Source of the DNA: Proteinivorax hydrogeniformans
Lineage (GTDB): Bacteria > Bacillota > Proteinivoracia > Proteinivoracales > Proteinivoracaceae
Length of the DNA: 64,000 nt
Assembly: GCF_040515995.1 (NCBI RefSeq)
Contig: NZ_CP159485.1
Span: 1,550,001 to 1,614,000, forward strand
Direction: 5' to 3'
Shown: in pieces, positions 41,234-42,573 of the stretch
How positions within the stretch are numbered: the first letter of the stretch is position 1
How the letters are laid out: every line of letters begins with the position of its first letter
Notes under the pieces: generated by a model
What the model saw: the letters and a program-made list of their open reading frames with translations, nothing else
The model's database searches: none
Told to the model about the DNA's origin: nothing
Position numbers and translations under genes: made by a program

Positions 41234-41494
41234 TTATTCGCCTCCTTGTTTAACCCTATCTTCTGTTCTAGTGTCTATTATAATAACATCTTGGCCTATT
41301 TTTTTGATTTTGTTCCAAGGAATTATATAGTCGTTCCCTGAAGACATTAACCCTAAGAACCCACTCTGCCCAGTTACAATTAAAGCTTTTATTTGCCCAC
41401 TGTCAGCGTTAATTTCTAGGTCGTCAAAATGACCTAAAACTTTTCCATCACCTAGGTTTACTATCTCCCTCTCTCTTAAATCAGAAATACGCAT
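41234..41494 (-). CDS. ylmC: YlmC/YmxH family PRC-barrel protein
   Basis: An 86-residue PRC-barrel protein of the YlmC/YmxH sporulation-associated family, starting MRISDLREREIVNLGDGKVL and holding GHFDDLEINADSGQI and the YIIPWNKIKKIGQDVIII end. The second ATG (41494) is better placed, 6 bases after AAGGGGG, than the first (41500). Its role is not known. It is separated from sigG by a terminator. Confidence 0.88.
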   Translation of the reverse strand: MRISDLREREIVNLGDGKVLGHFDDLEINADSGQIKALIVTGQSGFLGLMSSGNDYIIPWNKIKKIGQDVIIIDTRTEDRVKQGGE

Positions 41495-41555
41495 GTTCAT
41501 CCCCCTTTTTCTCAGATAACTTTATTAATAAATATATTCTTAAAAGTTATTATTA

Positions 41556-41590
41556 AAACAAAAAATACCTCAAAGTGTAGACTTTGAGGT
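41556..41590 (-). terminator. Terminator after sigG and the small reading frame
   Basis: ACCTCAAAGT and ACTTTGAGGT form a perfect 10-bp stem with a 4-base loop, followed on the minus strand by ATTTTTTGTTTT. The stop codon of the 46-codon frame touches the stem. Confidence 0.88.
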
Positions 41591-41730
41591 TAAAATCCTT
41601 GTACTATTATCTTACTGATTTCCAAAAAGAAATTATCACTATTATAGGCGTGCATAGCTTCAATTGTACTCTCTACACTAGGCTGAGAATCTAAAATAAG
41701 GGCGCTATACATTATAAACTTGTTTAACAA
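41590..41730 (-). CDS. Candidate 46-residue protein coupled to sigG
   Basis: A short open frame starts at TTG, 2 bases after the sigG stop, with AAAGGAGG (formed by the last sigG codons) 7 bases upstream. It ends exactly at the terminator stem. The product begins MLNKFIMYSALILDSQPS and ends FFLEISKIIVQGF; it is mildly acidic with a hydrophobic N-terminus. An ATG at codon 7 is a second possible start. I do not recognise a family. The tight fit between RBS, frame and terminator suggests a real gene made with sigma-G, but conservation was not tested. Confidence 0.55.
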   Translation of the reverse strand: MLNKFIMYSALILDSQPSVESTIEAMHAYNSDNFFLEISKIIVQGF

Positions 41731-41732
41731 TT

Positions 41733-42512
41733 TTAATCCTCCTTTACGTATTTTTTAAGGTGGCCTAAAGCAACTTTTTCTAATCTGGAAACCTGCGCTT
41801 GTGATATGCCGATTTCATCAGCAACTTCCATCTGAGTTTTACCTTCAAAAAACCTTAAAGTTAAAATTGTCTTTTCTCGTTCATTTAGGCGAGTCAATGC
41901 CTCGCTAACAGCAATCCCTTGTAACCAAGTACTATCTAGCTCCCCATCATCCTTGATTTGATCCATAACAAAAATCGGCTCCCCACCATCATGATATATA
42001 GGTTCGAAAAGTGAGACTGGCTCCTGAATAGCATCTAAAGCAAAAACCACTTCTTCTCTTTTAATATCCAATTCAGAAGCTATTTCGCTAACTGTAGGTT
42101 CTCTATCATGTGCATTAGTCAGCTTATCCCTTACTTGCAAAGCTTTATAAGCTATATCTCTAAGAGATCTACTAACTCTTATAGGGTTATTATCTCTAAG
42201 ATACCTTCTAATCTCACCAATAATCATAGGTACTGCATAGGTAGAAAATTTAACATTTTGACCTAAGTCAAAGTTATCAATTGCTTTCATTAAGCCTATA
42301 CACCCAACCTGAAAAAGGTCGTCTACACTTTCCCCCCTATTATTAAAGCGCTGTATTACGCTGAGCACTAACCGTAAATTACAGTTTACTAGCTGCTCCC
42401 GCGCTTCTTCCTCCCCTCCTTTTAACCGGATAAATAACTCTTTCATCTCTGCACTTTTTAGCACTGGTAGTTTAGCTGTATTAACTCCGCATATTTCTAC
42501 TTTATTTATCAC
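41733..42512 (-). CDS. sigG: Forespore sigma factor SigG
   Basis: Late forespore-specific sigma factor. The protein starts close to INKVEICGVNTAKLPVL, almost identical to the Bacillus SigG start, and has region 2 (LFQVGCIGLMKAIDNFD, FSTYAVPMIIGEIRRYLRD), region 3 and region 4 (LTLRFFEGKTQMEVADEIGISQAQVSRLE). I use GTG at 42512 (259 residues), 8 bases after GGAGG; an ATG at 42518 lies only 2 bases after it. It follows sigE, from which it is separated by a terminator. Confidence 0.96.
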   Translation of the reverse strand: MINKVEICGVNTAKLPVLKSAEMKELFIRLKGGEEEAREQLVNCNLRLVLSVIQRFNNRGESVDDLFQVGCIGLMKAIDNFDLGQNVKFSTYAVPMIIGEIRRYLRDNNPIRVSRSLRDIAYKALQVRDKLTNAHDREPTVSEIASELDIKREEVVFALDAIQEPVSLFEPIYHDGGEPIFVMDQIKDDGELDSTWLQGIAVSEALTRLNEREKTILTLRFFEGKTQMEVADEIGISQAQVSRLEKVALGHLKKYVKED

Positions 42513-42544
42513 GGTCATGTCCTCCTAAGTTAGTTGATATATTT

Positions 42545-42573
42545 ATTTATTGCCATTGATGGTTCAAATATGC
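42545..42573 (-). promoter_or_regulatory. Possible forespore (sigma-F/G type) promoter for sigG
   Basis: The minus strand has GCATA, then 14 bases, then GGCAATAAAT, resembling the sigma-F/G pattern of GNATA and GG-A-rich -10. Spacing and one base depart from consensus, so this is weak. The terminator after sigE makes a separate sigG promoter likely. Confidence 0.35.

Follow-up and report, generated by a model that had tools for sequence, protein, structure and literature searches.

Few loci in bacterial development have been studied as closely as spoIIGA-sigE-sigG. SpoIIR, through which the forespore signals for sigma-E, is needed for the SpoIIGA-dependent activation of pro-sigma-E. The accessible sections of a 2026 paper argue for a SpoIIR that works within the mother cell without being secreted, and report that cleaved SpoIIR went unseen in B. 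subtilis and that its leader tolerates replacement by other membrane segments (PMC13174948). As described in the available excerpts of the respective papers, SpoIIT (DUF1779, PF08680) is a secreted forespore co-activator of sigma-E processing (PMC4703394), SpoIIIL, which occurs exclusively in Bacillales and has a three-helix model, is a forespore membrane-associated factor for cell-cell signalling (PMC12251134), and the expression of sigG is finely tuned in B. subtilis (PMC5942855). Neither a small gene behind sigG nor a stand-alone SpoIIR leader appears in the excerpts consulted of the open-licence sporulation literature, including PMC3738446, PMC5942855, PMC13174948, PMC3533761, PMC4703394 and PMC12251134.

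We describe here a microprotein gene that is unnamed and widely spread: despite the attention the locus has received, at least 11 coded families of the phylum sampled carry a conserved small gene behind sigG.

The frame behind sigG and its conservation

The window, by which we mean the whole 64,000-nucleotide stretch of Proteinivorax hydrogeniformans DNA under analysis, comes from a genome of 2.83 Mb (G000) and carries the following features in and around sigG:

41234-41500, minus strand: YlmC/YmxH family gene (PRC barrel; TIGR02888 and PF05239), the next gene past the terminator
41567-41590, minus strand: intrinsic terminator, with a perfect 10-bp stem, a 4-base loop and a T run
41590-41730, minus strand: microprotein gene, 46 codons plus stop, with a TTG start at 41730 and the stop at 41592-41590
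41629-41649, minus strand: conserved motif A-Y-N-S-D-N-F, residues 28-34, its codons placed by alignments
41733-42518, minus strand: sigG, the upstream gene coupled to the frame, with a TAA stop at 41735-41733
41738-41745, minus strand: ribosome-binding site AAAGGAGG, in the final codons of sigG, 7 bases ahead of the TTG
42545-42573, minus strand: candidate sigma-F/sigma-G type promoter of sigG (GCATA, 14 bases, GGCAATAAAT), found by eye against what we take to be the sigma-F/G consensus

The upstream gene matches the NCBIfam model TIGR02850 at 491 bits, versus a cut-off of 457. The first-pass annotation, made from the letters and their open reading frames, had described a 46-codon TTG frame starting after 2 bases from the sigG stop, a ribosome-binding site in the last sigG codons at 7 bases from the TTG, and a frame end at a perfect 10-bp terminator stem. 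The frame is there in both the sequence and the ORF list, the binding site reads AAAGGAGG at 41745-41738, and the frame and the stem share one base, with which the stop codon ends and the stem begins. The terminator stretch (41590-41567) has a folding energy of -13.2 kcal/mol (z -6.2), and 0/200 shuffles were equally stable.

Chance frames of 30-60 codons are numerous near the microprotein frame in the window ORF list, and its length by itself is weak evidence for a gene; the frame rises above chance because frame, motif and place are all conserved. The window's family comprises five genomes, and reading past sigG in each of them shows a 45-50 codon frame coupled to sigG, with A-Y-N-x-x-N common to all. 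These frames begin -4 to +2 bases from the sigG stop and all end in F, and a hairpin and a T-rich stretch can be discerned by eye after each stop; the five-copy alignment is invariant at M1, A28, Y29, N30, N33 and F46. The genus-mate (G001) keeps the TTG start, the same ribosome-binding string AAAGGAGG and the hairpin, and its copy was recovered at E 3e-8 by a motif-free protein search of 41 genomes. The other three family copies rest on place and motif, because this search missed them; its two matches at E 0.16 and 0.36 look like chance. In two other families of the class, seven sigG loci lack such a frame, and the one genome representing the class's fourth family gave no sigG match. In one family member (G004, locus L101), several hundred additional bases lie between the microprotein gene and ylmC, with near-copies of the terminator-like CCAGC...GCTGG on both sides; judging by its sequence, this segment looks like an inserted element.

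The pattern of substitutions fits coding-type evolution. In 14 overlapping pairs, in-frame pN/pS was 0.09-0.55, versus 0.48-6.17 in shifted frames, the comparison being confined to typed cores (38 codons in the window's own genus), with silent sites near saturation in several pairs. Fisher p values, obtained for seven of the 14 pairs, range from 2.8e-3 for the weakest to 1.6e-9 for G279/G117; the own-genus pair gave a pN/pS of 0.42 (p 1.1e-4) and the G003/G004 pair 0.22 (p 8.6e-4). For G366/G399, the in-frame value of 0.47 was practically no lower than that of one shifted frame (0.48). The earlier reading of the frame as a possible new sporulation microprotein gains support, as the frame is open directly behind sigG in 5/5 family genomes and shows fewer amino-acid-changing than silent differences; the frameshifts, stops or lack of conservation in close relatives that had been named as speaking against the gene were looked for, and the five open frames and the two ratios of 0.42 and 0.22 were found instead. 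The frame is very probably a real protein-coding gene.

Microproteins behind sigG in other genomes

Altogether, 42 distinct microproteins were collected behind sigG: 5 from the window's family, 5 from named contigs (L019, L020, L027, L028 and L036) and 32 from sampled genomes, the coded ones spanning 11 family codes. Inspection by eye of 80 named loci, which were the best SigG matches, showed spoIIR often directly behind sigG, and at L019, L020, L028 and L036 one frame each, of 52-68 codons, that carries AYNxxNL or AFNxxNL but lacks a SpoIIR domain. Further loci (24 new and 80 fetched) came from among the SigG matches listed, genomes with two sigG genes first and then downward, with G242 skipped, and a profile search of 398 genomes supplied additional microprotein cases. 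A pattern-based survey covering 196 sigG loci (187 distinct), which leans toward SigG most like the window's because the best matches were taken first, gave 34 with a microprotein, 77 with spoIIR (70 distinct) and 85 with neither (83 distinct), the last class including the L027 frame, located 464 bases downstream of sigG. All of the named Paenibacillus, Cohnella, Brevibacillus, Alicyclobacillus and Clostridium loci belong to the class with neither; since 83/187 distinct loci do so, sporulation can do without the microprotein.

A hydrophobic stretch above our mark of 1.8 is found in 41/42 microproteins, versus 25/140 like-sized frames from the window, and the window's own copy, at 1.63, is the sole one below it. 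Ahead of the conserved part, where a signal peptidase site would lie, V or I occupies residue -3 in 35/42 (M in the window's copy) and A occupies residue -1 in 40/42, although the search pattern admitted only A, S or T at the latter position. The tail past the motif varies from 9 to 53 residues, with about 12 in the window's copy, and a ribosome-binding match of at least 4 bases precedes the best possible start in 31/42. The microprotein is, as a family, probably membrane-inserted or exported; this is less assured for the window's own copy, which by sequence is the least typical of the set for export. At one locus (L201, in G397), the motif-bearing frame has no ATG, GTG or TTG far enough upstream to take in the hydrophobic part, so that it is possibly decayed or possibly uses another start codon.

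The strict motif A[YF]N..N[LF] occurs in 60 (35 distinct) of the 6367 frames of 30-110 codons from all loci gathered plus the window, and all 35 lie behind sigG, in a collection which is not a random genome sample, because its loci were chosen for their proximity to sigG, spoIIR or profile matches. A second protein family with the motif was considered and rejected: at the 20 places read, profile matches of ~285-330 residues were either full SpoIIRs or a protein with YAVGAFNTNNLEIVQAI, presumably a class II aldolase. Because its long matches are of these two kinds, we do not use the lower part of the profile-search list (180/398 genomes, E up to 0.05) as evidence; the search also gave two additional weak matches in G000 and one in G001.

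Relation to the SpoIIR leader

Part of the SpoIIR family has an N-terminal leader in which a hydrophobic segment is followed by A-Y-N-x-x-N-L, and this feature is present in the microproteins. The SpoIIR domain itself, of ~128 positions and including the NWWC stretch, gave no PF09551 or TIGR02837 match in the window protein or in 30 other members, and with that domain absent the microprotein fails, on its sequence, to qualify as a SpoIIR. The first-pass annotation had recognised no family, and this stands to the extent that no Pfam or NCBIfam model fits any of the 31 microproteins scanned; what it lacked was the resemblance to the SpoIIR leader. In hhalign, a profile of the 31 microproteins matched the SpoIIR N-terminus with probability 94 and E 8.5e-8, a match that, like the strength of the motif, is partly circular because most rows were picked by motif. 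The match to 26 SpoIIRs not behind canonical sigG was weaker (probability 32, E 4.8e-4), and the five family copies alone gave a weak match to the SpoIIR profile (probability 41, E 2.8e-4). Shared descent of the motif region with the SpoIIR leader is, in our judgement, likely.

The leader motif is distributed unevenly among the SpoIIRs themselves. In its relaxed form it was found in 39/64 SpoIIR N-termini next to canonical sigG, versus 0/38 elsewhere (0/18 next to a second SigG-like sigma gene and 0/20 without sigG near); the strict form was found in 18/64 and in none of either other class. The association with sigG adjacency has Fisher p 1.9e-11 for the relaxed and 9.5e-5 for the strict motif, with related genomes treated as independent. 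Correction for relatedness leaves one informative pair on supported branches and six at most, too few to confer power, and the opposite direction was never seen; this corrected test omits the SpoIIRs of L036, L026, L142 and L158. The N-terminus count dropped L136 and missed L120, L124, L134, L135, L249, L250, L251, L255, L260 and L264; the SpoIIRs of L124 and L135, read separately, are also without the motif.

A complete spoIIR is present elsewhere in all of the microprotein genomes tested: 24/24 sampled genomes, 5/5 of the window's family and 4/4 with named contigs. In a quick sigG tree, loci with the microprotein intermingle with those that have spoIIR, and the microprotein state needs six changes, three of them forced by well-supported branches. 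This pattern fits, and may reflect, repeated splitting of a sigG-spoIIR pair. As the simplest summary of the sequences compared, the leader would stay at the sigG locus with or without a SpoIIR body, and SpoIIRs elsewhere would be without it.

In the genome that contains the window, and outside the window itself, a further SigG-like sigma gene with a complete spoIIR directly behind it is located at G000:C1:2713679-2714918 (L109, L326). It matches SigG at 61% and scores above the NF006071 SigG cut-off and below that of TIGR02850. It is the third gene of its kind in G000, since sigG is also there, as is a sigma gene (L330) behind spoIIAA-like and spoIIAB-like frames, which was taken as sigF. This arrangement, with spoIIR following such a sigma gene, recurs in further families of the class and among some of the microprotein genomes.

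AlphaFold modelling of a SpoIIR that bears AYN (L071; mean pLDDT 87) places the AYNPNN stretch (38-43) in a coil, with the membrane helix (8-29) before it and the first strand (45-50) after it. The PDB contained no solved SpoIIR relative by sequence search (5 matches up to E 1, the best, at 0.024, being a designed protein) or by a fold search with this model (best E 0.39), and the modelled SpoIIR fold appears to be unrepresented in the PDB copy searched.

Possible roles and comparison with known systems

We lean slightly toward reading the frame's product as a genuine SpoIIR-leader protein that is directed to the membrane, whatever its target. The frame would be translated from the sigG message, in coupling with the end of sigG, and would be expressed in the forespore together with sigG. 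Its product would be a SpoIIR N-terminal leader without the SpoIIR domain, laid out as a hydrophobic stretch, in most cases V/I-x-A next, then Y/F-N-x-x-N-L/F, and finally a tail that is short and variable. It probably inserts into the forespore membrane with the tail toward the space beside the mother cell, and would either stay anchored there or be freed by signal peptidase past V/I-x-A. Acting from that position, it might adjust the SpoIIR-to-SpoIIGA line that turns on sigma-E. SpoIIGA, being SpoIIR's own target, is the most economical choice of target; that the microprotein acts in the SpoIIR/SpoIIGA line is proposed here tentatively on the basis of sequence likeness, and there is room for another target because the gene is linked to sigG and not to spoIIR.

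This linkage, along with the presence in the window's family of a spoIIR behind another sigma gene and the 0/38 motif count for SpoIIRs away from canonical sigG, would suit a forespore membrane microprotein directed at something other than SpoIIGA, such as the intercellular channel or the switch to sigma-G. We regard this reading as doubtful, the SpoIIR leader being the only relative found. A secreted, sigG-linked leader (YNxxNL...) could even constitute an unrecognised forespore peptide signal, fused to SpoIIR in some lineages and standing alone in many; we consider this unlikely, and if true, such a signal would report sigG expression to the mother cell separately from the SpoIIR signal.

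The remaining alternatives deny the peptide any function. Translation of the frame might act in cis, setting sigG message stability, termination or sigG output, with an inert product, as the tight coupling to sigG, the stop codon touching the terminator and the fine tuning of sigG in B. subtilis (available excerpts of PMC5942855) would lead one to expect; however, amino acid selection and a fixed peptide motif speak against it, as do relatives that lie 100-460 bases past the sigG stop and lack the tight packing, and we hold it to be quite unlikely. Alternatively, spoIIR may have left, or been copied from, its place behind sigG, and its front end may persist as a functionless, decaying fossil. 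The complete spoIIR found elsewhere in 24/24 tested microprotein genomes, the interleaved states on the sigG tree and the L201 frame without a usual start are compatible with such a stub, but in-frame pN/pS below 0.56 in 14/14 pairs, and frames that remain open and keep the motif and the stop position within clades, make it very unlikely. As for a random open frame, frames of like length are common by chance in the window, but the frame is conserved, is under selection and carries a motif at a constant place, all of which contradicts this explanation and renders it extremely improbable.

If the leader protein that we favour is real, the natural separation of SpoIIR into leader and body offers a direct handle on the leader's job. 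Among the described systems, SpoIIT differs in size, having ~250 residues where the microprotein is far shorter (46 codons in the window), and its PF08680 (DUF1779) domain had no match among the 31 microproteins scanned against Pfam. A separate DUF1779 gene is present in 38/61 genomes; replacement of SpoIIT by the microprotein is no general rule, as this gene coexists with it in 5/5 genomes of the window's family and 14/24 sampled microprotein genomes. SpoIIIL, compared by description only, resembles the microprotein in being a forespore membrane factor, as predicted for the latter, and differs from it in its confinement to the Bacillales and its three-helix model. SpoIIR (PF09551, TIGR02837) is the closest system: like the microprotein, it lies directly behind sigG in many genomes and has a hydrophobic start followed by A-Y-N-x-x-N-L. 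Unlike SpoIIR, the microprotein is without the SpoIIR domain (R-L-H ... N-W-W-C), a complete spoIIR being present elsewhere. Lineages bearing the motif may differ in this respect from B. subtilis, because there, according to the accessible sections of PMC13174948, SpoIIR cleavage was not observed and the leader is exchangeable.
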